DNA of 64,000 nucleotides from Chloroflexi bacterium HGW-Chloroflexi-4 (lineage in GTDB: Bacteria > Chloroflexota > Anaerolineae > Anaerolineales > Anaerolineaceae): the NCBI GenBank assembly GCA_002840715.1, contig PHBW01000007.1, positions 1-64,000 on the forward strand, in the 5' to 3' direction. The notes below the pieces were generated by a model. The model did not search any database, had not been told where the DNA came from, and was given only the letters and a program-made list of their open reading frames with translations. Position 1 is the first letter of the stretch. Each line of letters opens with the position of its first letter. Position numbers and translations under genes: made by a program. Below are positions 44,845 to 62,166 of this stretch, piece by piece.

Positions 44845-44894
44845 TAAAACTATGTTTCATTTACTATGATAACATTAACCAATTCCCTGGTCAA
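44845..44894 (-). promoter_or_regulatory. AOR promoter with 15-base shared operator
   Basis: Leftward strand: TTGACC (44889-44894), 17 bases, TATCAT (44866-44871), then 6 bases on TGAAACATAGTTTTA (44845-44859). The same operator, in the same place relative to -10, recurs at four other promoters of this island. The surrounding 70 bases are nearly identical to the chemoreceptor promoter. Confidence 0.75.
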
Positions 44895-44966
44895 GAACTT
44901 TTTCAAATTACAAAATAACGATGTCGCCTCAACTTCAGAGGAATAAACCAACCTTCTTGAAATTCA

Positions 44967-46970
44967 CTAACCTTCCAGTTTGAATTGTGCGATCAATGTG
45001 TTTAACGATTGGGCCATCACAGCCAATGATTGTGCTGAAGAGGCGACTTCCTGTGAATGAGCATTCAGCTCTTCCGTTGAAGCACTGACTTCTTCAACCG
45101 CAGCGCCGTTCTCTTCACTCACACTGGCGATGTTTTCAATGGCTTGAATGACCACCACTGAACTAGCATCCATCTCTTTGGTGATGGCAGTATTTGCCTC
45201 CGCCACTTCCAGAACCGAATCCATGGACATCACTAATTCTTGTGAGGAGGCATTGACCTTTTGAGCCGATTTGGCAATATCTTCGATCCTTCGTTTGACA
45301 GCTTCGGCAGCTTTTGTAATCGAATTGAGCGCATCATCACTCTGGTTAGCGAGTGACACACCCGCTTCAACTTCTTTTTCGCTCTCCTGCATTGATGCGA
45401 TTGCTTCTTCGACTGTTTTTTGTATCTCGCCGATCAAAGTACCAATTTCCTTCGTGGCGGTACTGGATCTTTCAGCCAATTTTCTTACTTCATCCGCGAC
45501 GACTGCAAAACCCTTTCCGTTTTCACCGGCACGAGCGGCTTCAATTGCAGCATTAAGGGCCAACAGGTTGGTCTGCGAAGCAATATCATCAATGGTTTGA
45601 ACGATCGCACTGATCTGACTTGAACTGGTGCTCATATTCTGAACACTTTTTGCTGACAGGGCGACTTTCTCTTTTATTGATTGCATCCCCCGGATCGTTC
45701 CCTGAATGGTTACTGCTCCTTTAACCGCAATTTCTGCAGCTTGTGAAGATTCCAAAGCTCCAGTTTCTGCATTCTCAGTGATTTGTTGGATGGCTGTTGA
45801 GATTTGATTTGAAATTTCAGAAACCTTGTTTACCGCTTTTGATTGTTCCTGTGCTCCTGAAGCGATCTTTGCTATTGCCTGACTCATTTCATCGGCCGAC
45901 AGGGCTGTTTTTGTCGAGGATTCTGTTTGCTGAGAAATACCATTGGCGACTTGACTTATTGTTGTCGAAATTTGACTTGTCGCCTGACCTGTCTGCTCGG
46001 CGTTCATCGATAATTGATTTGAGGCCTTTTCAAGCCCTGCCGCGTTTGTGCTGATTTGGCTGATGATTTCGCGCAGTTGTTCCGACATTTGCGTAAATGC
46101 AAAGCCAAGCTCATCCCGCTCTGACTTTGGCTCAACCCGCGTTGACAAATTACCGGCTGAAATCTGGCGGGCAATTTCGGCCATTTCAACGAGATAAAGC
46201 CTGATACCCCCAATCTGACGACTGACATCACCAATTTCGTCTTTGCGTTTTTTCAATTTTATCTTCATGCTTTCAGACATATTTCGATTCAAATCACCCA
46301 CAGACAGGTTTTTGAGTGATAGTGAAGTGAAATTGAGCGAATCGGTAAATCCGCTTGAAAAAACGAAGGCAATGGCAACGGTCCCCAAGATGGAAAACGA
46401 TAAAACTAGTTGTATCAAGCGTTTCGATGATGTGTAGGCCACCAAATTTTCATCTTGTTTGGCCTGTGATTCATTCAATTCGTAGCTGACCAATGAAGCA
46501 AGACTTGTCAGCAGATCTTCACTGTTTTCTGTCAGGAATTGAATACTTTCCTTGATTCCGGCGGCGTCCCTATTTTCCATTTGTGTTTTCAAAACAGGAA
46601 AATAGGATTCATAAGTCTTCCAGTTCATGTTGACTGCTTGAACTAAAGGTTGTTCTGCCGCATTATCTTTGCGAGCTTGAAAATAGGCTAATCCATCTGA
46701 AATTGATTCAGTGGCTTTTTGAATTATCAATGCTTGTTCTTTTACAATTTCCGGCTTATCAACATGCATCAAGATCGTTGTATAGGAATTCCTAAGTGTG
46801 TGAAAATCACTCATTAATGCTTGAGAATGATAGGTGGGTAGATAATTTAATTCATAAAAACCAACGCTTTTATGAAAAACCCCGGAAAGAGTTTTCAATC
46901 CAGCAACCCCCAATAAAAGGGAAAACACCATTGTCAATGCAAAGCCGATGAGCAATTTAGTTCGAATCAT
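44967..46970 (-). CDS. Methyl-accepting chemotaxis protein
   Basis: A protein of 667 residues. Membrane span 1 at 7-27, a periplasm-like four-helix-bundle ligand domain (about 28-188, [20 protein letters not shown]), span 2 at about 190-210, HAMP (about 212-300), then a long signalling coiled coil with the conserved hairpin [43 protein letters not shown]. The C-terminus lacks a CheR-binding pentapeptide. It senses a small external ligand through 4HB and controls motility. Its promoter is a near copy of the AOR promoter, so the attractant probably belongs to the pathway encoded around it. Confidence 0.93.
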
Positions 46971-47327
46971 GAGCCTCTGTTCATCCTTTCGAGTCTAATT
47001 GTTAATACGCTTTCCTTTTACGGTGTCCATTTTCTACAAGTAGATAATTTGAAATTCGCGCCTCTATCTTTTTCGTGCCGAATATCTTAAATTCAGAAAA
47101 GTTAGGAACAAAAAATAATATTTAGCCAGGACAGTTGAAAAATATTCTTATTTGAAAACCCAGAGCGAATCAAATGCCGAATTGATCAACAATAATTTAA
47201 ATCTCATCCTTATCATCATGGTCTTTGTTGTTGGTGATCAAGGACTTTATTCAGCATGAAAATAACGCTTCTTTATTTAGCCCAATCTCCGTTTATTTGT
47301 TCATACAAAGAGTGTTGTTTTATTAGA
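46971..47327 (-). other. Long leader of the chemoreceptor gene
   Basis: About 350 bases between the predicted promoter and the chemoreceptor start. No gene or clear terminator is visible. A leader of this length could hold RNA regulation, but no motif is recognised. Confidence 0.4.
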
Positions 47328-47375
47328 TAAAACTATGTTTCATTATTATGATAGCATATTATCCAAATTGGTCAA
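47328..47375 (-). promoter_or_regulatory. Chemoreceptor promoter with shared operator
   Basis: Leftward strand: TTGACC (47370-47375), 16 bases, TATCAT (47348-47353), 5 bases, TGAAACATAGTTTTA (47328-47342). The operator is identical to the one at the AOR promoter, and the following TCTAATAAAAC is also shared. Confidence 0.75.
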
Positions 47376-47569
47376 GTTTTTGCAAATATATTGAGGTTTG
47401 ACAACGTTAATAGAAATGGAGATACATCAAGTATTCCATTATTTCCCCTTTGGTAATCACAAACCAATAGCGGAAATTAGCCTTCTTTGGGTATTCTTAA
47501 TTAAGGACTCTTACAGGTCCCAAAAACATCCCTGCCAGACCATAATTTTCTCTTGAACACGACTTAATT

Positions 47570-48517
47570 TCAAAACAGATGGGCTCGTAAAAATTTAAAT
47601 ACTTTTGCCATGTTTTCTGTGGTCTCAAATTTAGGATCGCCGTGTTCCGCCCCGGGAATGATCTCGAATTGAAGTTGATCAGGACCCAAGTATTGTTGAA
47701 GCGCATTGTGCAGAGCAATGGATTGCTGTACAGGCACCAACGGGTCAATATCACCGTGTTGGATAAAAAATGGAGGAAGCCCCGCATGAAGATAGAGATA
47801 AGGATTGGCCTGCTCAACCTTTTCAGGAACGGACTGAATTGGCGCTCCCAGGTATTGCGACTCAGGTGAAAAGGGTTCGTTATGGTCAGGTACACCGATC
47901 CCGTTTTGCAGGATCTGTTCATCCATGTGGAGAAAATCAACAGGGCCAAACCAATCCACCACGGCCTGCACCTCAGATGAGAAGTCTAAATTGCCTAGAA
48001 CCTGATCATCAAACGCACTGGTGTTGCCGGTAACGCCCAACATGACTGCCAGGTTACCGCCGGCTGATCCGCCGCAAGCCGCAATTCTGCTGCCGTCAAG
48101 TGAATATTTCTCCTGTTTGGCGCGGACCCAGCGCACGGCAGTTTTTACGTCCTGCACGGCGGCCGGAAAGATCGCTTCTCGGCTCAGGCGGTATTCCACA
48201 CTGACCACTGCAAATCCAAGCCCCAAGGCGCCAAGAAATGGAAGCAGATGGACATCACGCTTGTCTCCGATCATGAAACCGCCGCCATGGATCACCATAA
48301 GCACCGGAAACGGCCCTTCACCTTGCTCAGGCAAGTAAATATCCAACTTCTGTGATGGGGAAATGGAAGCATAAGGAACATCAAGGAATTTCCGGGCTAC
48401 AAAAGAAACATCTGCCATCGGAATATCTGGTGGCCCCAAAGAATCGCCTAAAGGCGTGAAACCTCCTTTAGGCGATTGAACAAAATTCGGATTCAAGATA
48501 CTGTCTTCTGGCGTCAA
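47570..48517 (-). CDS. BD-FAE/esterase-lipase family alpha/beta hydrolase
   Basis: A protein of 315 residues, soluble. Oxyanion motif HGGGF, nucleophile elbow GGSAGG, acid in HGDIDPLVPV and catalytic H in GAEHGDP complete the triad. The family cleaves acetyl, feruloyl or other esters from carbohydrates. It is about 60% similar by eye to the esterase at 52429-53313. It is the last gene of the ribose-type ABC operon, so it probably de-esterifies the imported sugar. The start is uncertain: a TTG at 48517 is used, and ATG 48418 is an in-frame alternative. Confidence 0.85.
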   Translation of the reverse strand: MTPEDSILNPNFVQSPKGGFTPLGDSLGPPDIPMADVSFVARKFLDVPYASISPSQKLDIYLPEQGEGPFPVLMVIHGGGFMIGDKRDVHLLPFLGALGLGFAVVSVEYRLSREAIFPAAVQDVKTAVRWVRAKQEKYSLDGSRIAACGGSAGGNLAVMLGVTGNTSAFDDQVLGNLDFSSEVQAVVDWFGPVDFLHMDEQILQNGIGVPDHNEPFSPESQYLGAPIQSVPEKVEQANPYLYLHAGLPPFFIQHGDIDPLVPVQQSIALHNALQQYLGPDQLQFEIIPGAEHGDPKFETTENMAKVFKFLRAHLF

Positions 48518-48570
48518 AACTTATCCACACTCCAGATTTCTTCAGATAATAGCAAATAACTGCCCAAATT

Positions 48571-49572
48571 TTATGCAGCTACTTTTGCCACAGTTGCTTT
48601 GGCTTTTCGATTCTTTTGATATACATCGAAAGCCACCGCAATCAATAGAACTGCACCTTTGACCACGGTTTGAGAAAAATCAGGGAAAGCTGCCAACTGC
48701 ATGGCGTTATTTAAAACACCAATAATAACCATCCCAACCATCAGCCCAAAAATAGTGCCCTCACCGCCTTTAAAGCTGACGCCTCCCAAAAGTGCTGCCG
48801 TGAGGCAGTCAAATTCAAGACCCTGCCCGGTAAATGTTTGTCCAGCGAAAACTCTTGAAAGTAATAATACCGCAGTGATCCCCGAGCAAAAACCGCAAAT
48901 CATGAATAATATAACTTTCATTCGGTTTAAATTGACACCTGCAAGGCGGGCTGCTTCTTCATTACCTCCTAAGGCAAATACCTGTCGACCAAAGTACGTC
49001 TTCGTCAATACAAAAGACCCAATTATTGCTACGACAATCAACACAATGACAGGTACTGGAATTCCCCAAACATATCCCTGGCCAAACCATCGGAAAGATT
49101 CTGGGAACCCCATAATATTTCTGGACTGATTGATTATGTAACCCATACCTTTAAATATTGCAGAGGTACCCAGTGTAATGATAAGCGGATGAATCTTAAG
49201 TTTTATTGAGAGGAAACCATTGATAACACCAAAACCGGTGCCCACCAACAAGATCAAGGGTATCGCCACAGCTGGGGATAATTTCCAATCAGCCATCATA
49301 ATCGCCAAAAGAACATTACTAAATACGATCTGAGAACCAATCGAGAGATCAATACCGCCGCTGATCATTACAAACATTAATCCAACAGAACTAATCCCTG
49401 CAAATGAAATTTGGCGTATCAAGGTACGTAGATTTCCAAATGTCATGAAGTTGGGTGCTACAAATGTAAAAAGTATCAATAAGAAGATTAGGATCAATAA
49501 TGGCACATTCTTTTTTCCAAATGACCATATCTGTCTGCCAAACCCTGATAGAAACACAGATTGATTGCTCAT
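48571..49572 (-). CDS. Ribose-type sugar ABC transporter permease
   Basis: A protein of 333 residues with eight to ten spans. The RbsC pattern is clear: FVAPNFMTFGNLRTLIRQISFAGISSVGLMFVMISGGIDLSIGS, then INGFLSIKLKIHPLIITLGT, GGNEEAARLAGVNLNRMK and LTAALLGGVSFKGGEGTIFG. It forms the membrane channel of a CUT2 importer with the neighbouring ATPase and binding protein. GGAGGAA precedes the ATG; the gene starts 18 bases after the ATPase gene. Confidence 0.92.
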   Translation of the reverse strand: MSNQSVFLSGFGRQIWSFGKKNVPLLILIFLLILFTFVAPNFMTFGNLRTLIRQISFAGISSVGLMFVMISGGIDLSIGSQIVFSNVLLAIMMADWKLSPAVAIPLILLVGTGFGVINGFLSIKLKIHPLIITLGTSAIFKGMGYIINQSRNIMGFPESFRWFGQGYVWGIPVPVIVLIVVAIIGSFVLTKTYFGRQVFALGGNEEAARLAGVNLNRMKVILFMICGFCSGITAVLLLSRVFAGQTFTGQGLEFDCLTAALLGGVSFKGGEGTIFGLMVGMVIIGVLNNAMQLAAFPDFSQTVVKGAVLLIAVAFDVYQKNRKAKATVAKVAA

Positions 49573-49590
49573 TACTTATTCCTCCAAAAG

Positions 49591-51078
49591 TTAATGGGTC
49601 CCCGATGCGAGGTCGAGAATATAATGTTGATTAAAATTCTCTTTTTGGACTTCTCCAACTAATTCACCTTCGCACAAGACGATTATCCGGTCTGACATAC
49701 CTAATAGTTCTTCCATATCCGAAGAAATCATCAAGATCGCAATTCCATTATCAGCCAATTCAGTCATGAGTTGATAAATCTCCTGTTTGGCGCCAACATC
49801 AATTCCACGGGTGGGTTCATCAAAGATTAAAATATCAGACTCAGCCGCCAAAGATTTGGCAAGCACCACTTTCTGTTGATTACCACCGCTCAAATTGATC
49901 ACCTGCTGTAATAAGCTGGGAGTTTTAATGTTTATCCGTTCTTTATATTTCAGCGCAATTTCGTCTTCTTTTTTCGTATTTACCACACCGTATTTTGAAA
50001 TACGTCGAATAATTGGGAAACTGATATTCCATTTGATAGGCATCTCTAGGAACAGCCCCTGGCCTTTACGATCTTCTGTCAACAAACCAATTTTATGTTG
50101 GATAGCATCCAAAGGGGACTTGATTTTGACAGGATTACCATTGATCAAGATTTCTCCACTTTGCATTGGAGCAGCACCAAAGAGCAATTGTGCCAATTCT
50201 GTTCGCCCAGCACCAACCAAACCGGAAATACCCAATATCTCACCTTTCCGTACTTTAAAAGAGATATTCTTATCGCCATTACCGGTAAGGTTTTTCACTT
50301 CCATGGCAATTTCGGTCGGAGGATTCTTTCGCTGGGGATAGTTTTCTTTTAGTTCTCGTCCAACCATTAAAGTAATAAGTTCCTGCCGATTCGTATCTTT
50401 TGTATTTATAGTGGTCACGTAGCATCCATCACGCATGACACTCACACGATCAGAAATACGGAAAACTTCTTCCAAACGATGTGAAATATAAATAATCGTC
50501 ACACCTTTTTGTTTTAACTGATTGATGATATTGAACATCATCTCCACTTCTGAAACACTTAAAGGCGCAGAGGGTTCATCCATGATCAATATTTTCACGT
50601 TCTTAGATACTGCTTTGGCTATTTCAACGATCTGCTGATCAGCAATGGATAGATCTTGCACCATGGCATGCGGATCAATCTTCACGTCAAATTGTTTCAA
50701 AACCTCAATAGCTTTTTTAGTAATTATTTTTTCATTAAATAGTACTGAATTCTCAGTTTTTTCACATAAGTAAATGTTTTCAGCTACTGATAAAGTGGGA
50801 ACAAGATTAAACTCCTGATATATAACTTCAACACCCAGGCTCTTTGAAAGGAAAGGAGTCATCTTGGAATATTCTTGTCCGTTAATTTTAATGATCCCCG
50901 AATCGATATCAATGGCTCCAGCAACCGCTTTGATTAATGTTGACTTACCCGCACCGTTCTCACCCAACAAGGCGTGGACCTCGCCTTCAAGAAAACTCAT
51001 CGAGACATTATTCAGAGCCAATACACCGGGATATCTCTTGGTGATTTTTTCCAGGGATAATACAACCTTGGCATCCAT
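49591..51078 (-). CDS. Ribose-type sugar ABC transporter ATPase (two NBDs)
   Basis: A protein of 495 residues, the usual length for RbsA. NBD1 has GENGAGKST, LSIADQQIVEIAKAV and ILIMDEPSAPLS. NBD2 has GLVGAGRTEL (degenerate Walker A), LSGGNQQKVVLAKSLA and ILIFDEPTRGIDVG. This asymmetry is normal in CUT2 ATPases. ATG 51078 has GAGGTG upstream; the frame is open from 51123 but that start is unsupported. It energises import with the adjacent permease. Confidence 0.92.
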   Translation of the reverse strand: MDAKVVLSLEKITKRYPGVLALNNVSMSFLEGEVHALLGENGAGKSTLIKAVAGAIDIDSGIIKINGQEYSKMTPFLSKSLGVEVIYQEFNLVPTLSVAENIYLCEKTENSVLFNEKIITKKAIEVLKQFDVKIDPHAMVQDLSIADQQIVEIAKAVSKNVKILIMDEPSAPLSVSEVEMMFNIINQLKQKGVTIIYISHRLEEVFRISDRVSVMRDGCYVTTINTKDTNRQELITLMVGRELKENYPQRKNPPTEIAMEVKNLTGNGDKNISFKVRKGEILGISGLVGAGRTELAQLLFGAAPMQSGEILINGNPVKIKSPLDAIQHKIGLLTEDRKGQGLFLEMPIKWNISFPIIRRISKYGVVNTKKEDEIALKYKERINIKTPSLLQQVINLSGGNQQKVVLAKSLAAESDILIFDEPTRGIDVGAKQEIYQLMTELADNGIAILMISSDMEELLGMSDRIIVLCEGELVGEVQKENFNQHYILDLASGTH

Positions 51079-51144
51079 TCTATTTTCACCTCTGAATTTT
51101 AGTGAAGGGCCCCCACCCTTCACTATTATTTTCGCATAAACTAC

Positions 51145-52281
51145 TTATTTTGCTGCGAGTGTAGAGAAATCGCAGGAAATCGGGTCCAATTGATCGTTGA
51201 TAATGTTGGGATATTCAACACCCTGAAGCATCTTCTTGACCTGTTCGTAAGTTGCAACATCAAGCGAGGTTCCACCAATGGCGACAAAACCCTTGTAAGG
51301 ATCTTCACAGCTGGTGACAACTGGAATCATGGAAGGATCCATATCGCCGGCAAAGACACCATACTGTGAAGGATCTACATTTGGCAGTGCTTTGATGGCG
51401 TTGGCGATACCCTGAGCATGGGCGGCGGATTGACCAAGAAATACTTTAACGTTTGGATTAGCAGTTAAGATGTTCTCAGCCGCACCCTGACCGACAGGAA
51501 TACTGTCACCGGTGATATCCAGGTGTGCGACAAGATTAACCTTGGGGCAAATATCGGTAATGGTGGAATAACCACGATCACGTTCGAACATACCAACACC
51601 AGAGCTTGCAGCACCAACGATTGCAGTTTCAACACTACCATCAGCCGCATCCGGATAAACAGCTTCAATGAAATCGCAAGCCATCTTGGCAACTTTTTGT
51701 CCGTCTTCGAATTGGCTGGTGTGCATAATGGCATCAAACGGTGCCAGTTTGGCAGGAGGAACGCCCATCACCATGATGCCAGCTGCTTTGACTTCTTCAA
51801 TAGCAGGGAGTAATTGGTCGACTTCTCCTGCTGCCATGAGGTACATAAAATCGACTTTCATCGAAATACAGTTCTCAATCTGATCGTATTGTTGGTTTAA
51901 ACCACCTTCATCAGCGCCGTAGACCTTAACTGTTACGCCATCAGCCTCAAATTTTTCAGTAACAGATTTGGAAATACCGTTCAAGAAAGGATTGGCAAGC
52001 GATGGGATCAGGTAGCAGACTGTTTTGCCGTTGATATCAAAAGGCGATCCGTCTTTTGCGGGTACCATAGAAACAACGACATCCTCTATGGAGGCATCAA
52101 CGGGTGCGACAGCTTCAGTCGCCGCGGCTTCAGTTGGTGCAGCAGTTGCGGCGGCTTCAGTTTCAGCAGGGGCTTCAGTGGCAACAGCAGCGGGTGCTTC
52201 AGTTGCTTGTGGAGCGCAGCTCGCGAGCATCATAACGGCAATTAAGAGGAATGTCATTACGAACATCAACTTCTTTGTCAT
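51145..52281 (-). CDS. Sugar ABC transporter substrate-binding lipoprotein (peripla_BP_4)
   Basis: A protein of 378 residues. Signal peptide with lipobox MLASC, then a low-complexity linker of about 45 residues rich in A, T, E and P, then the LacI-type binding fold: VCYLIPSLANPFLNGISKSVTEKFEADGV, GGLNQQYDQIENCISMKVDFMYLMAAG, VFLGQSAAHAQGIANAIKALP and FAGDMDPSMIP. It delivers sugar to the adjacent CUT2 importer; the ligand cannot be read. The gene lies 147 bases after the esterase gene, and no good promoter is seen in that gap, so read-through from the esterase promoter is likely. Confidence 0.9.
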   Translation of the reverse strand: MTKKLMFVMTFLLIAVMMLASCAPQATEAPAAVATEAPAETEAAATAAPTEAAATEAVAPVDASIEDVVVSMVPAKDGSPFDINGKTVCYLIPSLANPFLNGISKSVTEKFEADGVTVKVYGADEGGLNQQYDQIENCISMKVDFMYLMAAGEVDQLLPAIEEVKAAGIMVMGVPPAKLAPFDAIMHTSQFEDGQKVAKMACDFIEAVYPDAADGSVETAIVGAASSGVGMFERDRGYSTITDICPKVNLVAHLDITGDSIPVGQGAAENILTANPNVKVFLGQSAAHAQGIANAIKALPNVDPSQYGVFAGDMDPSMIPVVTSCEDPYKGFVAIGGTSLDVATYEQVKKMLQGVEYPNIINDQLDPISCDFSTLAAK

Positions 52282-52428
52282 CTTTCTTCTCCTTTTTTTA
52301 TCGTATATCTGAATAATTGAGATTGATTCTCATGAATACAAGTCTTACAAAAAACCACCTCCCTTCAAAATCATTTAAACATTGTCAATTGACTAATTCC
52401 AAATTTTTTGGTTGGGAAAACAAGCGAA

Positions 52429-53313
52429 TCATTTTAAGTGTTTGTCCAAAAAACTCATAACCCGTTTGATATTCTCCTTGGATTCAAAGGCTGGACCACC
52501 ATGACCTGCTCCCTCCAGAACATCAAATTCAAAACGATCATGGCTGATGTATTTCTGCATTTTTTCAACGAAGATAATAGACTGTTGTACAGGTACGGTT
52601 GAGTCCATGCTTCCATGCTGGATTAATATTGGCGGCATATTCTTGTGGATATAAGTCATTGGATTTGCAAGTTCAACCTTCAAGGGAATGTCGGATATCT
52701 TCGCTCCCAAATATCTGGACTCAGGTGACATGGCTTCACCATGATCAGCCGGTCCCAATGAATGTTCCTGTAATTGTTCATCCATCATGAGAAAATCAGT
52801 CGGCCCAAACCAATCTACTGCAGCCTGCACATTACACGGATAACCAGGGTTACCCAGGTTGTAATCATCAAATTCAGTAACACTGGAAGTCACACAAATC
52901 ATCGAAGTGATGTTTCCACCTGCTGAGCTTCCCCACACTGCAATACGATTTCCATCCAACTGGTATTGTTCACTATTTGCCCGGATCCAGCGGATGGCTG
53001 CTTTAACATCCTGCACAGCAGCAGGGAAGATCGCCTCGCCACTCAACCTATAATTCACACCAATAACCGCGTAGCCGGACGACAAAGCCTTAAGAAAAGT
53101 CAACAGTTCTATATCTCGTTTATCGCCTTGTTGAAAAGCTCCACCATGAATGTACAATACTATTGGAAAGGGACCCTCCCCTGTCTCGGGGAGATATATA
53201 TCCAGCATCTCAGCACTGGAACAATTTGCATAAGGAATATCCAGCCACTTGCGAGATATGCCAGAAACATCTGCCGGAGGAAGAAGAATTAAATCATTGT
53301 CAGTATTTGTCAT
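52429..53313 (-). CDS. BD-FAE/esterase-lipase family alpha/beta hydrolase
   Basis: A protein of 294 residues. HGGAF is the oxyanion motif, GSSAGG the nucleophile elbow, HGSMDSTVPVQQ holds the acid and GAGHGGP the catalytic histidine. It is a paralogue of the esterase at 47570-48517; together they flank the sugar importer. ATG 53313 with AAGGA upstream is preferred over ATG 53361. The promoter carries both a LysR-type palindrome over its -35 region and the shared 15-base operator after its -10, so control by two regulators is likely. The LysR gene is divergent. Confidence 0.86.
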   Translation of the reverse strand: MTNTDNDLILLPPADVSGISRKWLDIPYANCSSAEMLDIYLPETGEGPFPIVLYIHGGAFQQGDKRDIELLTFLKALSSGYAVIGVNYRLSGEAIFPAAVQDVKAAIRWIRANSEQYQLDGNRIAVWGSSAGGNITSMICVTSSVTEFDDYNLGNPGYPCNVQAAVDWFGPTDFLMMDEQLQEHSLGPADHGEAMSPESRYLGAKISDIPLKVELANPMTYIHKNMPPILIQHGSMDSTVPVQQSIIFVEKMQKYISHDRFEFDVLEGAGHGGPAFESKENIKRVMSFLDKHLK

Positions 53314-53350
53314 AGAATAATCCTTGAAAGTATAGTAGCATTTTGAGTAA

Positions 53351-53397
53351 TGAAACTCCAATTCATTCTATGATACAATACATTCCAAAATGGAATG
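53351..53397. promoter_or_regulatory. Divergent esterase/lysR control region: shared operator plus LysR palindrome
   Basis: Leftward: -10 TATCAT (53370-53375) followed 4 bases later by TGAATTGGAGTTTCA (53351-53365), a weaker copy of the shared operator. CATTCCA-AAA-TGGAATG (53381-53397) is a perfect 17-base palindrome that replaces the -35 region and lies just upstream of lysR. A LysR protein bound there could activate the esterase and repress itself. Confidence 0.65.
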
Positions 53398-53415
53398 GTA
53401 AAAAAGGGCAAAAAA

Positions 53416-54312: not shown

Positions 54313-54344
54313 AAATCCCAGTTATAAATGCCTAATAGGGATAA

Positions 54345-54371
54345 AATGGCAGTGGAGATTCCACTGCCATT
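54345..54371. terminator. Bidirectional terminator between convergent genes
   Basis: AATGGCAGTGGA (54345-54356) pairs perfectly with TCCACTGCCATT (54360-54371) around GAT, between the lysR stop and the converging binding-protein stop. Confidence 0.75.
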
Positions 54372-54409
54372 CTAACAATCCGGATCTGTTCGACTGACAT
54401 CAAAAAAGA

Positions 54410-55684
54410 CTAAGGTATGGGATAGACAAAGTCTGCCGTTTTCTGGTCAGCCGGCCATACAAGTTCCATTTTGCCATCCTGCCATTGGACTAATGGGTTC
54501 AGCACGTTCCCAGTTCCGTCAGCATTAAACGAAACATTGCCCATGACAGTCATCATTTCTGTTGCCGCGATCGCATCTCTGATCGCGTCACGATCCAACG
54601 TGCCGGCTTTCTCTATACCGGCAGCCAGTATTTGAACACAGGCATACGCAGGGCCTACAAGGATGTCAGCCGGTCTGCTGAAATCAGTCTGATGTTTGGC
54701 ATTGATCTCAGCAATACCGTCGAAGTTCTCGCCACTGTGCCAACCAGCAAACATGGTCACACTATCACCGGCTGTTCCGGTTGCTTCACCCCAAGTTGCC
54801 GCATCTGGAGCACGAACCAGCATGATGAATTTGGGTTCCCAACCAAGTTCAGCCGCCTGTTTCACAATGGCAATACCGTCTGGCGTATTCGGCATACCAA
54901 GAAGCATGTCTGCATTTGCAGCCTGGGCTTCCATGATCAAAGTCGAGAAATCGGTCGTACCAGGAGCATACTCAGCGTAATACGCCACCGTGTAACCTGC
55001 GGGACCAGCATCCGCTTTAAAGAGACCACCCAACTCATTACCCCAGTCGGTTTTTTCCTGGAAGATGGCGATATTGGTTGGTCTTTCTTCTTTGGTGGGA
55101 ACCAACTCGTTGAGTGCCTTGAACACATCACGAGCCTGATCAGGTGATTTGGGGAACGGTGAAAACAGGTATTTGTAGCCTCTCTGGTGAATATTCCACC
55201 AGGCAAAAGAGACACCGAGGTAGGGCACCTTGTTCTTTTCAGCAATGGCTGTGGTGGCAGCGTGCATTCCGCTTGCTGCGCCACCCAGATATGCGACAAC
55301 ATTGTTTTCAGTGAAAACTTTTTCCAAATTGCTGACCGCTTTAGTTGGATCGGATTCATCATCATACGCTGTCAGGCGCAGTGGAATTTTCGTCCCATAT
55401 TCTGCGACATAAACACCACCGTCTGCATTGATATCGGCAATGGCATAGTCATAGCCTACCTTGACCTGGCTGCCTAAAGAACCGAATTTTCCAGTGAGTG
55501 GGATGGATGCTCCGATCTCAATGTATTCTGGAGCAGGCGGGTATTGTACTTCTGTGGCTGTTGGGGCTTGGGTTTCTAGCGGAGCCTGTGTAGCCACCGG
55601 AGTGGGGGTTGGCGCAGGAGTGCAACTGGCCAGCAATAAACTGATTATTACCACTAGTGCCATGATGGACATTCTTGCTTTCAT
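54410..55684 (-). CDS. Branched-chain amino acid-type ABC substrate-binding lipoprotein
   Basis: A protein of 424 residues, lipobox LLASC, Thr/Pro linker, then a LivK/peripla_BP_6 fold: IEIGASIPLTGKFGSLGSQVKVGYDYAIADINADGGV, VVAYLGGAASGMHAATTAIAEKNKVPYLG, NIAIFQEKTDWGNELGGLF, ADMLLGMPNTPDGIAIVKQAAELGW. Such proteins bind amino acids, amides or aromatic and short organic acids. It is the last gene of the five-gene Liv operon. AGGAG precedes the ATG. The true ligand probably relates to the surrounding catabolic genes rather than to leucine. Confidence 0.9.
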   Translation of the reverse strand: MKARMSIMALVVIISLLLASCTPAPTPTPVATQAPLETQAPTATEVQYPPAPEYIEIGASIPLTGKFGSLGSQVKVGYDYAIADINADGGVYVAEYGTKIPLRLTAYDDESDPTKAVSNLEKVFTENNVVAYLGGAASGMHAATTAIAEKNKVPYLGVSFAWWNIHQRGYKYLFSPFPKSPDQARDVFKALNELVPTKEERPTNIAIFQEKTDWGNELGGLFKADAGPAGYTVAYYAEYAPGTTDFSTLIMEAQAANADMLLGMPNTPDGIAIVKQAAELGWEPKFIMLVRAPDAATWGEATGTAGDSVTMFAGWHSGENFDGIAEINAKHQTDFSRPADILVGPAYACVQILAAGIEKAGTLDRDAIRDAIAATEMMTVMGNVSFNADGTGNVLNPLVQWQDGKMELVWPADQKTADFVYPIP

Positions 55685-55767
55685 TCCTCATTCTCCTTTC
55701 AAGTGAATAGCCGAAAAAAAAACCTAAGATCTGGTGTCGTTAAATCATGCCGATAGTCTCTCTCCTT

Positions 55768-56754
55768 TCACTCACGCTGAATACCATCCTCGTTTTGAAT
55801 GGTTGCTTTGAGTAACACTTTTTTTCTTCTCTTTGTTTTCTTCGTCAGAAATGTTCTAAATTTCTGCCAAATTTCCACAAGACCGCCGGGAAGGAACAAA
55901 ACGATCAGAATAAAAAGGGTGCCAAAAATGATCAGATGGTATTCGCCTACATTCCAGACCAGTAATTGTTTTAACAACACAAAAAATACGGCACCAATGA
56001 TGGGACCAATAATGGTTCCTGTTCCACCGATGTAAGCCATCATCATCGGGTCGAAGGTCCATTCACTGCCAAAGGGCATGTAATAGTAAAAACTCACGTG
56101 GTAATACGCAAAAGCTGCACCCGCCATGCCCGCAAAAAAAGCGCTGATGGAGAGGGCGATGAGTTTATGCTTGAGAGCACTGATGCCCAGCGATTCTGCT
56201 GCATCCTCGCCTTCACGTACAGCCATCATCCCCAACCCAATTCTGGATTTGACCAAAATGGCCGCCGTAAGGATGGTGATCAGGGTCAACCCCAGAAACA
56301 GGTAATATCTCGGAAGGAGCTGATAATTTGCAAGGTCAGGGTTATAAGACATTTCAGGCAGAATGTTGCCGACAGTAAGATTGAGCATTTGGGCCAAAGC
56401 CAGGGTGCCGATGGCAAAATATACCCCCCTCAATTTAAATGCCGGCGCGCCAATGATGAGCGCCAGAATGACCGCCACGACACCACCAGCCAGGAAACTG
56501 AGTAGAAACGGGACGCCATTGACCCACAACAGGCGGGTGGTGAGTGAACCGACCCCAAAGAAAGCCGCATGTCCAAGGTTGGTCTGGCCGGTATATCCGC
56601 CAAGGATATTCCAACTGGAAGCCAGCAAAATATAGAGCAAGACCAGGATCACCAAATTGATGGTGCTGTCATTCTTGATCACCAGTGGAAGAACCACCAA
56701 CAAGGCCACGACAACAATGATGAGGATGAGTTTTATGATGTTATTCTTTTTCAT
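55768..56754 (-). CDS. livM: Liv-type ABC transporter permease (LivM)
   Basis: A protein of 328 residues with about nine spans. LivM motifs: LASSWNILGGYTGQTNLGHAAFFGVG, APAFKLRGVYFAIGTLALAQML, RIGLGMMAVREGEDAAESLGI and GTGTIIGPIIGAVFFVLLKQ. It starts four bases after the LivH gene. The C-terminus is basic (LTKKTKRRKK). Together with LivH it makes the channel. Confidence 0.9.
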   Translation of the reverse strand: MKKNNIIKLILIIVVVALLVVLPLVIKNDSTINLVILVLLYILLASSWNILGGYTGQTNLGHAAFFGVGSLTTRLLWVNGVPFLLSFLAGGVVAVILALIIGAPAFKLRGVYFAIGTLALAQMLNLTVGNILPEMSYNPDLANYQLLPRYYLFLGLTLITILTAAILVKSRIGLGMMAVREGEDAAESLGISALKHKLIALSISAFFAGMAGAAFAYYHVSFYYYMPFGSEWTFDPMMMAYIGGTGTIIGPIIGAVFFVLLKQLLVWNVGEYHLIIFGTLFILIVLFLPGGLVEIWQKFRTFLTKKTKRRKKVLLKATIQNEDGIQRE

Positions 56755-56757
56755 CGC

Positions 56758-57639
56758 CTAAGCCTCTTTGGATCCAAATAAGCCTTGCGGACGGAAGATC
56801 AACACCAATAGGAATAAAACCAATCCCGCCACTTCGCGGTAATTACTGCTGATAAAGAACGAGGTGGTTGATTCGGTCAAACCAAGGATCAAGCCGCCAA
56901 TTATCGTGCCGGGGATATTGCCCAAACCTCCCAACACCATCACGATCAGAGCCTTCATGGTCCAGCCAAGCCCCATGGATGGCTGGATTGAATAATTGAC
57001 AGCCACCAGAGTGCCAGCCACGCCGGCCAGTGCAGCTCCCATGGCAAATGAGAGCAAATAAACTTTATGAATGTCGATTCCCATCAAAGAAGCGGCCTCC
57101 CAGTTTTGAGTGGTCGCCCGAATGGCTTTACCGGTGTAGGTTTTCTTCAAGATCAACTGCAAGATGATTAAGAAGATGACCGTAACCACCAGAATGGCGA
57201 CTTTCGGCAGAGGGAACCGTACTCCGCCAAGTGTGAAAGCCTGGCTGAAATATGAGGTGGTAATGCCGCGTTCATCCGCCGTAAAGAAACGGAGAGCCAG
57301 GTTCTGAAAGATGACCGAAAGACCGAATGCCACCAGAAGCGTGTTTTTGATCTTGGATTCTTCAGGCAGTTTTATGGTTCGAGAAAAAACGAGCCTGTAG
57401 AGTATTGCCCCTAAAACAAACAAGATAATGATGGTGAGTGGAATGGAAAGGAACGGATCCAGCCCCAGCATTGAAAAAGCATAAAAACTGGCATATCCCC
57501 CAAACATCACCAATTCACCATGAGCAACATTAAGGAATTTTGTGACGCCAAAAATAAGAGAAAGACCAAGGGCGACCAATCCATAGAGGGCGCCCACGAG
57601 AAGCCCGAATACAAGGTTTTGTCCCAGAGATTGCAACAT
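56758..57639 (-). CDS. livH: Liv-type ABC transporter permease (LivH)
   Basis: A protein of 293 residues. LivH motifs: GLVALGLSLIFGVTKFLNVAHGELVMFGGY, ATTQNWEAASLMGIDIHKVYLLSFAMGAALAGVAGTLVAV and MVLGGLGNIPGTIIGGLILGLTES. It lies between the LivF and LivM genes in one leftward operon. Confidence 0.92.
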   Translation of the reverse strand: MLQSLGQNLVFGLLVGALYGLVALGLSLIFGVTKFLNVAHGELVMFGGYASFYAFSMLGLDPFLSIPLTIIILFVLGAILYRLVFSRTIKLPEESKIKNTLLVAFGLSVIFQNLALRFFTADERGITTSYFSQAFTLGGVRFPLPKVAILVVTVIFLIILQLILKKTYTGKAIRATTQNWEAASLMGIDIHKVYLLSFAMGAALAGVAGTLVAVNYSIQPSMGLGWTMKALIVMVLGGLGNIPGTIIGGLILGLTESTTSFFISSNYREVAGLVLFLLVLIFRPQGLFGSKEA

Positions 57640-57667
57640 AACGGCCTCAATTCCCTTTCATCAGAAA

Positions 57668-58369
57668 TCAACCAAGATAAGAACTGCGAACCGATTCAAA
57701 GGTGAGAAGATCTTTTCCTTTGCCCTCACCCACTATTCGACCGTTTTCCAACAAATAGGCGCGGTGAGCCAGTTCAAGCGAAGACTGAACATTTTGCTCC
57801 ACCAGAAAGATTGTTAATCCCTCATGATTGATCTTCTCAATGGTTTCAAACATACGCTCCACAAGAATGGGCGCCAGACCGAAAGAGGGTTCGTCCAGCA
57901 TCAGAAGCTGCGGCTTTGACATCAACGCTCGTCCAATTGCCAGCATCTGCCGTTCGCCTCCGCTCAAAGTGCCGGCTTGCTGAGATTTTCGTTCAGCCAG
58001 CCGCGGAAAGATCTCGTATACCCATTCCAAATTTTGGTTTTTTTCTTTCCGCGCCCGCTTCACAAAAGCGCCTAATTCAAGATTCTCAAGAACGCTCATC
58101 CCTGTAAAAATCTTTCCACCTTCAGGGACCTGTGAAAGCCCGTATTCCACAATTTTTTCAGGTGCTTCTTTTTCAATCTGGCGGCCAAGAAAATCAATCT
58201 TTCCAGAGGCGCATCGATGAAGTCCGCTGATCACACGCAATAGGGTTGTTTTTCCAGCTCCGTTTGGACCAATCAGCGCAACAATCTCCCCTTTTTGAAC
58301 GTTCAGAGAAACGCTCCAGATCGCTTGAAGTTCCTTGTAAAAAATATTGACGTTTTCCAGGTTAAGCAT
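57668..58369 (-). CDS. livF: Liv-type ABC transporter ATPase (LivF)
   Basis: A protein of 233 residues, standard LivF length. Walker A GPNGAGKTT, signature LSGGERQMLAIGRAL, Walker B LLMLDEPSFGLAP, H-loop VEQNVQSSLELAHRAYLLENGRIV. Its start overlaps the LivG stop by eight bases. Confidence 0.93.
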   Translation of the reverse strand: MLNLENVNIFYKELQAIWSVSLNVQKGEIVALIGPNGAGKTTLLRVISGLHRCASGKIDFLGRQIEKEAPEKIVEYGLSQVPEGGKIFTGMSVLENLELGAFVKRARKEKNQNLEWVYEIFPRLAERKSQQAGTLSGGERQMLAIGRALMSKPQLLMLDEPSFGLAPILVERMFETIEKINHEGLTIFLVEQNVQSSLELAHRAYLLENGRIVGEGKGKDLLTFESVRSSYLG

Positions 58370-59090
58370 GAGATTTTCCTAAGTAAACTTCGATGACTTT
58401 GGGGTTATGGACGATCTCTTCAGGTTGGCCTTCTGCAATCTTTTCGCCCATATTGAAGACAATTATTCGGTCGGACACGCATGTGACTGCTTTTACAATG
58501 TGTTCCACCATGATGATGGTGATATTTGACTCTCTGATCTGATTAATCAATTTACAAGCCTCATCAGCTTCAGTAAGATTCAATCCCGCCATCAGTTCGT
58601 CCAATAGAAGCAAATATGGTTTGGTCGCCAATGCCCTGGCTAGTTCCAAACGCTTTCGCTCCATGACTCTCAGATCTTTAACCAAAATCCCTGCTTTGCT
58701 GCCAAGCCCCACCTGCTCAAGAATGTCTATCGATTCTTTTTCAGCGATATGCAGGTTGGCGCTTGGTTTCCTTCCATACGCTCTAGCGACCATTACGTTC
58801 TGCATAGCCGTAAAATCCATGAACGGTTTGCACAATTGGAAAGTTCTGGCAATACCCTTCTGGCAAACGATATGGCGCGGCAAACCGCCAATTTCTTCGC
58901 CGCGGAAATTGATCCTGCCTGAATTAGGTTTCAGAAAACCGGTCAATAGATTTAAGGATGTGGTTTTACCCGAGCCATTCGGGCCAATAATGCCAACAAT
59001 CTCACCTTCATTAACATGAAAGTCGAGATTATTTATAGCTTTTAATCCCCCAAAGGATTTACAAAGCTTTTCAACGGTTAACAATTGCAT
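58362..59090 (-). CDS. livG: Liv-type ABC transporter ATPase (LivG) with atypical signature
   Basis: A protein of 242 residues from ATG 59090 with GGAGGAA upstream (the frame is open to 59186 without support). Walker A GPNGSGKTT, Walker B YLLLLDELMAGLN and H-loop MVEHIVKAV are normal. The signature region reads VKDLRVMERKRLELARALA and lacks the usual LSxGQ motif; relatives with a changed signature are known in Liv systems, so activity is still likely. It is the first gene of the operon. No clear promoter was found upstream. Confidence 0.9.
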   Translation of the reverse strand: MQLLTVEKLCKSFGGLKAINNLDFHVNEGEIVGIIGPNGSGKTTSLNLLTGFLKPNSGRINFRGEEIGGLPRHIVCQKGIARTFQLCKPFMDFTAMQNVMVARAYGRKPSANLHIAEKESIDILEQVGLGSKAGILVKDLRVMERKRLELARALATKPYLLLLDELMAGLNLTEADEACKLINQIRESNITIIMVEHIVKAVTCVSDRIIVFNMGEKIAEGQPEEIVHNPKVIEVYLGKSHA

Positions 59091-59639
59091 ATTCCTCCTT
59101 CGCGAATATTGATCGATCCAGCAGCAATGTAGGAAAGAAATACCACTAACAAATCGGAGGTAAAGTATGAACTTGTAATTGTGCAACCTTAAGTTTTATA
59201 GTGCCCGTTGAATCTGCGATGGGTGTTTTTACGATCAAATTTATAAGTTGAGATTCAGATCTATTACTCCTTGAATGTTTTTGGGAAAGTAATAAATTCA
59301 AAAAATGCGTTCATGCCTGTTTTTTGAACTGCAATTACTCTTTGCTAACGAGCTTATGGTTTGATTTGAATAACATTCATCCCAATCCGAACAGGTTATT
59401 CAACTCTCAAAAGAAAAGCACCAATAAGAAGTTAAAAATAATGGGGTAGTAATGATATCGACGATGTTCGAAGGTATAAAGTACGTAGCAGCGAACTCAG
59501 TATCCAGCCCCTCAGTCGCGGCTTTGGCCAATCGATCTTTTTGAGCAAGAACCCAGTCACCACAAGACGAAGAATTGGTAACGCTTTTGTGACGGCTGGG
59601 TTCAATGATGAACGCTATTTCTCAAGTTAAAGGACTGAT
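59091..59639. other. Gene-free stretch between operons
   Basis: No gene is seen. It should carry the liv operon promoter, but no convincing -35/-10 pair or copy of the shared operator was found. An imperfect hairpin, GAACCCAG (59549-59556) with CTGGGTTC (59596-59603), may end the creatininase operon. Confidence 0.4.
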
Positions 59640-60605
59640 CTATGGTGGATACGCGACGGTATAAATATGCTTACCGCCGTTTAAGGGTCCCTTGAGCAAC
59701 GCATCAATTTCTGCTGCATCACGCATGGTGGTCTTATCGGTGGGTGGGAGTACCCCAGTGGGGAATTTTGTCATGATGTCACCGATCAACCGCACCATGT
59801 AATCAAGAAGAGCATCCAGACCTGGTTTGGCCTTGTCTGCATTTGCCAGAGTTGGCTGGCCAATTACACCTTCAGGATAGACAAGCACTTCGATGCCGCC
59901 AAGACCCACGTGTTCATGTCCTTTGATGGGGGCATGGTATACCTCACCGCCTTTATCCACATGGCCGGGGGGCAGAAAACCTTCAGGTTTTGTGTCGACA
60001 GCCAGGCTCATATCCATGAATTCAGGGAAGAGTGCCAGAGAATATGAGGCTTCTACCTCACAGGCATGCTGGAAGGGGGTTTCAAACGGACCACCGTGCG
60101 CCTTGTCCTTTAAGAAATCGTGGATGACAGTCGGCCAGTGGAGGGAAATCAGCAAGCTGGGTACCTGATATTTTTTGGCCCATTGATGCAGCGCCAACGG
60201 AATGACTTCTTCCTGACCGTGTCCATTTAAGAAGATCTGCTTGCGAAACCCCATGTTCCATAAACCAGCGATAATGGCACGCAAATTTGCCAAAAAAGCA
60301 TCTTCAGGAACAACGATTGTGCCGGGCATTCCCAGGTGGTTGTATGGATGAGATCCGTACCAAACGGGTTCAGCAATCGTACATCCGGTTTTCAATGCAA
60401 CCTGTTCAGCCATGCGGGTCACTAAAAATGTATCCTCCCCCAATGGTTGAGCGGCGCCGTGACATTCCGTACTGCCGACAGGAATAATGATCAGATCATT
60501 TTTCTTCAAGCGAGCATTGATCTGCGTCATATTCATGGTTTGCAGATACAGTCCTTCCGGTCTTTCCATTCGACCACCGTCAGGTGGAAACTGCCATTCA
60601 CCCAT
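59640..60605 (-). CDS. Creatininase-family metal-dependent hydrolase
   Basis: A protein of 321 residues, longer than creatininase (about 260). Metal ligands are visible: GSTECHGAAQPLGEDTF (E, H and D), NGHGQEE (H) and ACEVEASYSLALFPE (E). The YGSHPYNHLGMPGTIVVPE segment is the family substrate loop. From memory the full layout, with a VLPPTDK...LKGPLNGGKHIYTVAYPP end, resembles the branch that includes 3-dehydro-scyllo-inosose hydrolase (IolN) of inositol breakdown, but this needs a search. Ring-opening amidase is the alternative. It is the last gene of the cupin/U32-like/creatininase operon; AGGAG precedes the ATG. Confidence 0.85.
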   Translation of the reverse strand: MGEWQFPPDGGRMERPEGLYLQTMNMTQINARLKKNDLIIIPVGSTECHGAAQPLGEDTFLVTRMAEQVALKTGCTIAEPVWYGSHPYNHLGMPGTIVVPEDAFLANLRAIIAGLWNMGFRKQIFLNGHGQEEVIPLALHQWAKKYQVPSLLISLHWPTVIHDFLKDKAHGGPFETPFQHACEVEASYSLALFPEFMDMSLAVDTKPEGFLPPGHVDKGGEVYHAPIKGHEHVGLGGIEVLVYPEGVIGQPTLANADKAKPGLDALLDYMVRLIGDIMTKFPTGVLPPTDKTTMRDAAEIDALLKGPLNGGKHIYTVAYPP

Positions 60606-60650
60606 GTACTTCTCCTTTCATCGTTTTGTTCCTACTCGTAATTTCATAAT

Positions 60651-61568
60651 CTAAACCTGAGGAAGGTGAAGATCTGATGAACCCTTCTGGCTTTGTTTAA
60701 GATCAGGATAATAAGTATTTAACATTTCAACGATGATGGATGCCTGGTCAGCCATTTTCTTACCATCACTGGCAGAAGTGATCTGGCCATGAGCGGCCAC
60801 AACTGAGTTGCCCGTTTTACAATGGACGGGTGCGGCAAGACGCACGATCTCAGGGGCCTCATAAGTACGGATGAAACCACCGGAACCAGGGGGATTGTCC
60901 GTATGGACATCCAGCGGGGTCTTGATCACAGCGCGAAGGGCAGCAATCATGGGGAGTTGTAAATCGCGGACCGGGTTGATGCTATCAGCACCTAAATCTT
61001 CAAGAAGTTTTAATGAACAGGGATTGCACTGTCCAAGATGGGCAGATGTCTTGAAAATGATGTCTTTCGGCAGAGCGCCCTCTGCACGCATCTTGCCAAC
61101 CAGCCAAAGCATGCCTTCATCATAGATGAGGAATCCACGGACGCCGAGATCATAGCCGCGTTTAATATCTTCAACTGCACGAACCATTTGTTCCATACCG
61201 CGCAGACGATAGCTGATACGCACCCCCTGCTCTGATAGGACAGTAGCTCCGGTGTCATAGGTTGCGCGAGGGCCGGTGGAAAGCAAAAGTTCCGCACCGT
61301 AATCATGGCACAGCTTGCAGTATTGTTTGATTTCTTCGCGAGTATGGCGGAACATGCCATAGGTTTCAGTTACGCGATTGATAACAATATTATTCTTGGT
61401 TGCCTGATCCAGTAATGCAGCAACTGCATCCGCAGAATTGATGGTAGGTACTTCAATACGGAATGCAGCACCATCTGGAAACCGCAGGGTGGACGAGGGT
61501 AAATCCCAGAGGTCACCTTCCGGCATTCCTATCTTTTTTAAATAATCGCGCGTTTCTTGAAATATCAT
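60651..61568 (-). CDS. TIM-barrel protein resembling U32 peptidases
   Basis: A protein of 305 residues, soluble. The alternating strands and helices (VRISYRLRGMEQMVRAVEDIKRGYDLGVRGFLIYDEGML, DIIFKTSAHLGQCNPCSLKLLEDLGADSINPVRDLQLPMIAAL) form a TIM-barrel layout like that of U32-family proteins, although the typical U32 signature is not obvious. HLGQCNPC and the DVHTDNPPGSGGFIRTYE segment are probably functional. In this operon it is more likely an enzyme of small-molecule catabolism than a peptidase (inference). ATG 61568 has GGAGAAGGA upstream; the frame is open to 61673 without support. Confidence 0.6.
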   Translation of the reverse strand: MIFQETRDYLKKIGMPEGDLWDLPSSTLRFPDGAAFRIEVPTINSADAVAALLDQATKNNIVINRVTETYGMFRHTREEIKQYCKLCHDYGAELLLSTGPRATYDTGATVLSEQGVRISYRLRGMEQMVRAVEDIKRGYDLGVRGFLIYDEGMLWLVGKMRAEGALPKDIIFKTSAHLGQCNPCSLKLLEDLGADSINPVRDLQLPMIAALRAVIKTPLDVHTDNPPGSGGFIRTYEAPEIVRLAAPVHCKTGNSVVAAHGQITSASDGKKMADQASIIVEMLNTYYPDLKQSQKGSSDLHLPQV

Positions 61569-61599
61569 TTCCTTCTCCTTCTTAAGATTTTGGCAAAGT

Positions 61600-61962
61600 T
61601 TAACTACAATGTGCCGGTAGCGGCGGGCTGTAGACCCAAACAATTCTGAGCGGTTCATCGCCGATATTTTCAACGCGATGTTTTACGCCAATCGGAGAAT
61701 AGAAAGCAGTCTCAGGACCGATCTCCCATTCGCCCTGTCCTTCAAAAACAATTTTTGCATGACCGCTTATCAAGAAAAGAACTTCTTCTGAACTTTCGTG
61801 AACGTGATCTGGGATCATGCTGCCCACTTCAGTGATGTTCATGCCCATCGAGACTTTTTCTACACCACCAAATTTGGGGGCAAGTAGAAGCTTTGAAGTT
61901 CGAGGCGGTTCTCGAAACTCACCCTTTACGTCAGCTGCTTTAACGAACGGAACGTTTGACAT
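61600..61962 (-). CDS. Small cupin protein
   Basis: A protein of 120 residues with one cupin domain: SMIPDHVHESSEEVLFLISGHAKIVFEG (metal ligands H, H, E) and YSPIGVKHRVENIG (second histidine). Single-domain cupins of this kind act as isomerases, lyases or sugar-acid binding enzymes, or as sensors. GAGG lies upstream of ATG 61962. It is the first gene of an operon with the U32-like and creatininase genes, and its promoter carries the best copy of the island's shared operator. Confidence 0.87.
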   Translation of the reverse strand: MSNVPFVKAADVKGEFREPPRTSKLLLAPKFGGVEKVSMGMNITEVGSMIPDHVHESSEEVLFLISGHAKIVFEGQGEWEIGPETAFYSPIGVKHRVENIGDEPLRIVWVYSPPLPAHCS

Positions 61963-61990
61963 TATTTTTAACCTCAAGGAAGTTTTTTTT

Positions 61991-62051
61991 GTTTCACTCT
62001 ATGAAACACTGTTTCGTTAATCAGTATAGCAATCTTTTTACCTGATGTCAA
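61991..62051 (-). promoter_or_regulatory. Cupin operon promoter with the best copy of the shared operator
   Basis: Leftward: TTGACA (62046-62051), 17 bases, TATACT (62023-62028), 6 bases, CGAAACAGTGTTTCA (62002-62016). A further GTTTCA at 61991-61996 pairs with TGAAAC 62002-62007, giving an overlapping second dyad. Near-consensus promoter plus operator over the start site suggests strong repression. Confidence 0.8.
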
Positions 62052-62088
62052 CTACTTTCACAGAATAAAACTTATTAATCAATTCCCC

Positions 62089-62137
62089 TTGACTTCTATT
62101 AGACTGAATGATATTCTAATATTGAAACTGTATTTCA
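62089..62137 (+). promoter_or_regulatory. Dehydrogenase promoter with shared operator
   Basis: TTGACT (62089-62094), 17 bases, TATTCT (62112-62117), 5 bases, TGAAACTGTATTTCA (62123-62137). It is divergent from the cupin promoter, so the two operons share one regulatory region of about 150 bases. Confidence 0.8.
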
Positions 62138-62166
62138 CCTGTTGATACTAAAAAATCGGAGGCAGT

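Follow-up and report, generated by a model that had tools for sequence, protein, structure and literature searches.

A three-box operator at six promoters points to a probable IclR-type catabolic regulon in a Chloroflexota genome

The first 64,000 nucleotides of contig PHBW01000007.1 from Chloroflexi bacterium HGW-Chloroflexi-4 (Anaerolineaceae; assembly GCA_002840715.1), here called the window, carry a short palindrome that recurs immediately downstream of the -10 hexamers of several promoters. The assembly, G000 below, holds 3,858,082 bases in 50 contigs and is 85.6% complete; C20 is the contig carrying the window, and C20 coordinates past 64,000 lie beyond the window end. An earlier note on this DNA had described five 15-base palindromes as one operator shared by aldehyde oxidoreductase, chemoreceptor, esterase/sugar-importer, cupin and dehydrogenase genes. 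All five are real: they lie at 44845-44859, 47328-47342, 53351-53365, 62002-62016 and 62123-62137, each 4-6 bases after a TATCAT, TATACT or TATTCT hexamer, and they precede the genes named. The observation is also larger than was described, as the total is six, with the sixth site 5.8 kb beyond the window end. The palindromes at 44845, 47328, 62002 and 62123 run on into a third hexamer at a constant distance, and that at 53351, read on the + strand, does likewise if one mismatch in box 2 is allowed. From these window sites themselves we wrote a 26-bp pattern, TRAAAC-N3-RTTTYA-N5-TRAWAC (box 1, box 2 and box 3), so that their own match to it is no test.

Operator 1 (44834..44859, - strand; TGAAAC-ATA-GTTTTA-TCTAA-TAAAAC, 0 mismatches) starts 6 bp after the -10 TATCAT of the promoter TTGACC-17-TATCAT (match 10/12), ahead of a gene for an AOR-family aldehyde:ferredoxin oxidoreductase (AOR; 42893..44605, -; PF01314/PF02730). 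Operator 2 (47317..47342, -), an identical 26-mer with 0 mismatches, accompanies the promoter TTGACC-16-TATCAT (10/12) of a gene for a methyl-accepting chemotaxis protein (MCP; 44967..46970, -; PF00015). Operator 4 (61991..62016, -; CGAAAC-AGT-GTTTCA-TAGAG-TGAAAC, 1 mismatch) starts 6 bp after the -10 of a TG-extended promoter, TTGACA-17-TATACT, that serves the cupin operon (cupin gene 61600..61977, -, with its start probably at ATG 61962; PF07883); this promoter is the top match of 35 in 20 kb, though as many matches (mean 35.8) arise in shuffled sequence. Operator 5 (62123..62148, +; TGAAAC-TGT-ATTTCA-CCTGT-TGATAC, 0 mismatches) starts 5 bp after TATTCT in TTGACT-17-TATTCT, the promoter of a gene for an Ldh2-family malate/lactate-type dehydrogenase (62167..63273, +; PF02615). 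The cupin, AOR, MCP and Ldh2 promoters are all TG-extended with a recognisable -35, and box 1 begins 5-6 bp after the -10. The weakest promoter case is operator 3 (53351..53376, +; TGAAAC-TCC-AATTCA-TTCTA-TGATAC, 1 mismatch), where TATCAT lacks a good -35 and neither strand is as convincing as the other promoters. The site falls in the roughly 100-bp gap shared by a divergent LysR-family regulator gene (53395..54312, +; PF00126/PF03466; start more likely at 53416) and an operon encoding an esterase (FAE2), a sugar-type ATP-binding cassette (ABC) importer and an esterase (FAE1) (47570..53361, -; PF20434, PF13407, PF00005, PF02653), whose first gene more likely starts at ATG 53313. Operator 6 (C20:69767-69792, at most 1 mismatch), which came to light only after the pattern had been fixed, occupies the gap between an IclR-family gene, IclR2 (C20:68871-69638, -), and a nitroreductase-type gene on its other side (C20:69852, +), all beyond the window.

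By itself the 15-mer is at chance level, with 39 window matches at up to 2 mismatches against 40.2 expected from shuffles, and we rejected it as a stand-alone signal; the nonrandomness claimed for the sites holds through the third box, which lies 5 bases on and is absent from the earlier note. At up to 1 mismatch the three-box pattern occurs at 8 places in the 3.86 Mb of G000 and the reversed pattern, used as control, at 0; 6 of the 8 fall within about 25 kb (C20:44834-69792). This genome-wide search, which the earlier note had proposed, excludes the outcome that a motif of this kind follows most -10 boxes. Allowing 3 mismatches is uninformative, the counts being 61+68 for the pattern and 66+79 for the control. 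Across 147 genomes of the family, pattern and control each gave 50 matches by hand count, divided as 25 versus 2 in five genomes with the gene cluster (G000, G012, G170, G140 and G147) and 25 versus 48 in the other 142. A double match in G165 was treated as background, the only nearby matches being general ABC ATPases, with no gene of the set.

A profile that drew on other genera exclusively (20 sites, 19 of them located by means of the pattern itself and one by eye) returned 11 matches in G000 at E<=10. The first six are the six sites (E 0.0066-0.316), and the seventh lies elsewhere (E 0.563). Operator 5, which helped define the pattern, is the weakest of the six (E 0.316). Two further places at up to 1 mismatch are probably background: C23:10461 ranks last of the 11 (E 4.86), and C2:10335 is not among them. 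Open reading frames read by eye over C23:1-13000 included no recognised gene of the regulon set.

The congener G012 keeps all six operators at matching positions. When the intergenic gaps of G000 and G012 were aligned one by one, 108 of 108 box positions were identical, as were 43 of 48 in the spacers and 1072 of 1528 in the rest of the gaps. The gap between the cupin and Ldh2 genes is counted twice, and the other operator there falls in the rest, which reduces the contrast. At the AOR site of G012 the spacer TCTAA reads TTAGA while all 18 box bases are unchanged. Seven more genomes (G170, G140, G147, G208, G249, G274 and G279) have the operator at orthologous genes. In the three found by motif (G170, G140 and G147), sites stand at operons of cupin, U32-like (U340) and IolN-like genes and at nitroreductase-CoA-transferase genes, with a further site at malic enzyme/fumarase genes in G170 and another at a sugar importer in G140. 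G170 also carries the exact AOR/MCP 26-mer ahead of LarA-like, GlcF-like and GlcD-like genes, recognised from their translations, and an Ldh2 gene. Counterparts of operator 4 at a cupin or IclR2-cupin promoter occur in G170, G140, G147, G279, G274 and G249. Spacing to the -10 varies in relatives, the cupin operator of G170 lying about 17 bp after TACAAT and that of G274 9 bp after TACACT. In G147 the cupin-U340-IolN genes are duplicated, with one copy on contig C9 and another on C67, each with paired operators.

Searching 400 genomes of the order with the U32-like protein instead, and so independently of the motif, we found it in 12, with a cupin match at 10 of the 12 loci and an IolN match likewise at 10. 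Among nine genomes found through this protein alone, four (G208, G249, G274 and G279; 78-81% identity) carry operators at up to 2 mismatches, adjoining cupin or IclR2-cupin genes.

Operator 3 invites a separate explanation, in which it belongs to the LysR protein and resembles the other sites by chance. Its position in the LysR divergent gap fits this, as does an ATGAA-N7-TTCAT element that we take to resemble a LysR-type inverted repeat. However, the third box is correctly spaced in G000, G012 and G170, where the LysR/sugar-ABC gap holds a counterpart with 2 mismatches (C9:100552), and operator 3 ranks fifth among the profile matches in G000. The gap also contains a second palindrome that could serve LysR, and on balance we regard assignment of operator 3 to LysR as quite unlikely. 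That palindrome, ATTCCAAAATGGAAT, at 53382-53396 between operator 3 and the LysR start, recurs unchanged in G012 and almost unchanged in G170, which has ATTCCATAATGGAAT, and is possibly the LysR protein's own site.

The operator is of a type already known, the IclR three-box site. Suvorova and Gelfand (PMC8222616) described two types of IclR palindrome, predicted three-box sites for 32 orthologous groups, and proposed alternative dimer registers on such sites for some IclR proteins. All six sites, at up to 1 mismatch, have the three alternating boxes with an N3 group 2 pair (boxes 1 and 2) and an N5 group 1 pair (boxes 2 and 3), fitting the respective consensus at 11-14 of 15 and 12-16 of 17 positions. 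One pair fits GKTYCRYW3-4RYGRAMC and the other TGRAACAN1-2TGTTYCA of PMC8222616, and the 20-bp register from box 1 to box 3 agrees with the tandem spacing of 18-22 nucleotides given there. Unlike that consensus, the boxes here are TRAAAC/RTTTYA with AT-rich variants, and this gene set does not figure in the parts of the same paper that were consulted. At operators 1, 2, 4 and 5 a possible fourth box would be placed 5 bp ahead of box 1, either on the -10 hexamer itself or overlapping it. By eye, a fourth box at 5-3-5 spacing is present at G140 C50:13023, at G147 C9:7019 and at the sixth G000 site. Such spacing amounts to a pair of group 1 palindromes some 20 bp from each other, the layout expected for a tetramer.

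The TGAAAC..GTTTCA boxes resemble those of KdgR, the regulator of the hexuronate regulon. KdgR falls in the A/T-rich palindrome group of PMC8222616, and its NCBIfam equivalog model (cut-off 275 bits) scores the two IclR proteins of the region at 176.5 (IclR1) and 115.7 (IclR2), both below the cut-off; the genes differ as well. TIGR02431, which covers PcaR, PcaU and PobR, is the best-scoring NCBIfam model for both, at 190.5 and 169.1 bits for IclR1 and IclR2 and so below its cut-off of 284.75, and the box sequence of PcaU/PobR/PcaR differs. PcaU and PobR sites carry an external direct half-site repeat (PMC8222616).

Three-box geometry, conservation, low copy number in the genome and IclR genes beside several sites together give good support to the IclR-type regulon that the earlier note had supposed. 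We put the probability at about 0.7 that the six sites together make up the operators of a single IclR-family repressor regulon, with the IclR2 clade as the likeliest source of the repressor and a conserved catabolic programme as its target. An operator just after the -10 makes repression, rather than activation, most likely. An IclR dimer or tetramer on the boxes would sit over both the -10 and the start point, its occupancy would block the TG-extended sigma-70 promoters, and a pathway metabolite would then release it from the operators; we infer both the repression and its release by ligand. Some IclR-family members with three-box sites, such as PcaU and PobR, are activators, and the sites could in principle serve one here. 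That is very unlikely for boxes that cover the start point from 4-6 bp past the -10, at promoters of which four combine a TG-extended -10 with a recognisable -35 hexamer.

Which IclR protein reads the operators is a separate matter. The region encodes two: IclR1, of 260 amino acids (C20:63317-64099, -, of which 63317..64000 lies in the window; PF09339/PF01614 on the full protein), and IclR2; in each of them both the HTH_IclR and the IclR_C domain exceed the Pfam cut-offs. Because IclR1 adjoins the last two window sites, the earlier note had chosen it as regulator, a choice that the comparison does not support over IclR2. The two proteins fall into separate clades with 100/99 support each. Within 300 bp upstream, counting three-box sites at up to 3 mismatches or two-box sites at up to 1, an operator precedes 6 of 9 IclR2-clade genes (three-box in G000, G012, G249b and G208; two-box in G140 and G147) versus 0 of 4 IclR1-clade genes. 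Eight of the nine genomes with both cluster and operator, all except G279, have an IclR2-clade gene, and four (G000, G012, G170 and G274) have one of the IclR1 clade; in G208 and G249 the IclR2-clade gene directly precedes the cupin gene. Binding of the operator by an IclR-family protein is a prediction drawn from its association with IclR2-clade genes, and our ranking of the most likely arrangements puts IclR2 first, both proteins second and IclR1 alone third.

That IclR1 controls all six sites, leaving IclR2 to something else or to its own neighbours, would suit its place just beyond operators 4 and 5 and the Ldh2 gene, the closeness of its recognition helix (HKATTHRILTTM) to that of IclR2 (NKSTVHRLLATL), and the presence of operators in all four IclR1-clade genomes. 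Against it, no IclR1-clade gene is among the search matches of G140, G147, G208 or G249, all of which have operators and an IclR2-clade gene; none of the IclR1-clade genes has an operator upstream; and operator 6 sits in the gap between IclR2 and the nitroreductase gene. Control by IclR1 alone is therefore unlikely, and it is probably not the main regulator. A doubtful but more plausible alternative is that both paralogues share the operators while each senses a different metabolite, which would make a combined switch on one promoter set. The similar helices, the co-occurrence of both clades in G000, G012, G170 and G274, and the two dimer registers that three or four boxes provide would fit such a switch, whereas genomes with the IclR2 clade only retain the same operator. 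In the preferred arrangement, with IclR2 as the likely regulator, IclR1 may still bind the same boxes. The pair offers a natural test of the alternative-dimer-register proposal of PMC8222616. Viral contigs searched with IclR1 gave no relative; genome contigs searched in the same way gave, among the matches listed, a remote one in Sporomusa acidovorans (33%).

Several findings weigh against a single regulon under an IclR2-clade repressor. The IclR2-clade genes of G170, G249a and G274a have no operator in the 300 bp upstream, and the operator counted for the G208 gene, at up to 3 mismatches, is 220 bp off and faces the opposite way. A perfect operator also precedes an IclR gene of G115 that belongs to neither clade, so that the protein cannot be named from the boxes alone. 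G279 (85% complete) has operators, and its only IclR match (32% identity) groups elsewhere. Operator 3 could serve either flanking gene. In the profile search of G000, 150 of 3091 first-look candidates were scored, and the two weakest sites (E 0.139 and 0.316) overlap the best matches in control congeners (G003 0.151, G009 0.459, G013 0.936 and G015 0.952), of which G003 has no U32-like gene. Five of the nine genomes found through the U32-like protein (G211, G216, G292, G307 and G319; 38-68% identity to U340) have no operator at up to 3 mismatches. The flanks in G211 and G292 lack a cupin match and in G216 the AOR gene precedes the cupin gene, so there the operon promoter may lie outside the locus examined. 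Upstream of the cupin gene, the more distant clusters of G307 and G319 have GTATCA-N5-TGATAC-like repeats in place of TGAAAC boxes; a third IclR clade (G319, G292 and G307) may thus use an operator that has shifted.

The genes under the operators suggest an anaerobic pathway. In G000 they would comprise the chemoreceptor, the AOR, the esterases with the sugar-type importer, the cupin/U32-like/IolN-like operon, the Ldh2 dehydrogenase and nitroreductase/CoA-transferase genes, and we think it probable that the six promoters turn on together for uptake and breakdown of one compound, as a conserved anaerobic catabolic programme. Cupin, U32-like and IolN-like proteins, AOR, CoA-transferase, esterases and importers all point this way. 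Behind the cupin gene stand U340 (60651..61673, -; start probably 61568) and an IolN-like hydrolase of creatininase fold (59640..60605, -). U340 itself has no Pfam match, but of the 10 proteins in its alignment 7 reach PF01136 at E<=1 (best 6.1e-7), and it is probably a remote Peptidase_U32 relative. Its single-sequence fold is unusable (predicted local distance difference test 38.5). In G170, G140, one of the two G147 copies, G279, G208 and G249 the IolN-like gene is followed by the AOR gene in the same orientation; in G000 the AOR gene stands apart from the cupin operon yet has its own operator.

The creatininase-fold enzyme exceeds the IolN cut-off of the inositol pathway models IolM-IolN-IolO (NF041097-NF041099), with 511.6 bits against 245 for NF041098. 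Neither IolM nor IolO, whose presence beside IolN would mark that pathway, scores above cut-off in G000, G012 or G140 (85.6%, 84% and 99% complete). G170 and G249 do carry an IolO-IolM-IolN set, but away from the regulon genes, and the IolN of that set scores 313 and 309 bits versus 474 and 520 for the regulon copies; the regulon copies thus form a distinct IolN-like group, which perhaps acts on another cyclic ketone. A dihydrophloroglucinol ring-opening enzyme as relative of this group was considered and is unsupported, as PMC10470551 assigns that enzyme to a 'cyclase' family. An esterified cyclic polyol or polyphenol as substrate is our guess. More speculative, and on present evidence rather improbable, is a new anaerobic ring-opening pathway in which two IclR paralogues would each sense a metabolite of its own and share one three-/four-box operator, read in two dimer registers. 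In the same improbable scheme the cupin, U32-like protein, IolN-like C-C hydrolase and AOR would form the core, fed by esterases and chemotaxis and drained by CoA-transferase and fumarase/malic enzyme. Neither the regulon nor the pathway was found described in the open-licence literature searched. What the analysis provides is an exact operator, two candidate regulators and a conserved set of genes, probably regulated together, by which one catabolic pathway of this bacterium and its relatives is defined; the gene set, rather than single annotations, lets the substrate be sought, and within this genus the regulon places the chemoreceptor and the AOR in that pathway.

Malic enzyme and fumarase genes lie beyond the window (C20:66053-68857) and in G000 have no operator of their own at up to 3 mismatches. 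A five-gene Liv-type ABC importer (54410..59186, -), downstream of the cupin operon on the same strand, probably belongs with the cupin/U32-like/IolN-like operon. Farther off, the window encodes a histidine kinase of 2573 amino acids with many PAS and GAF domains (33286-41007).

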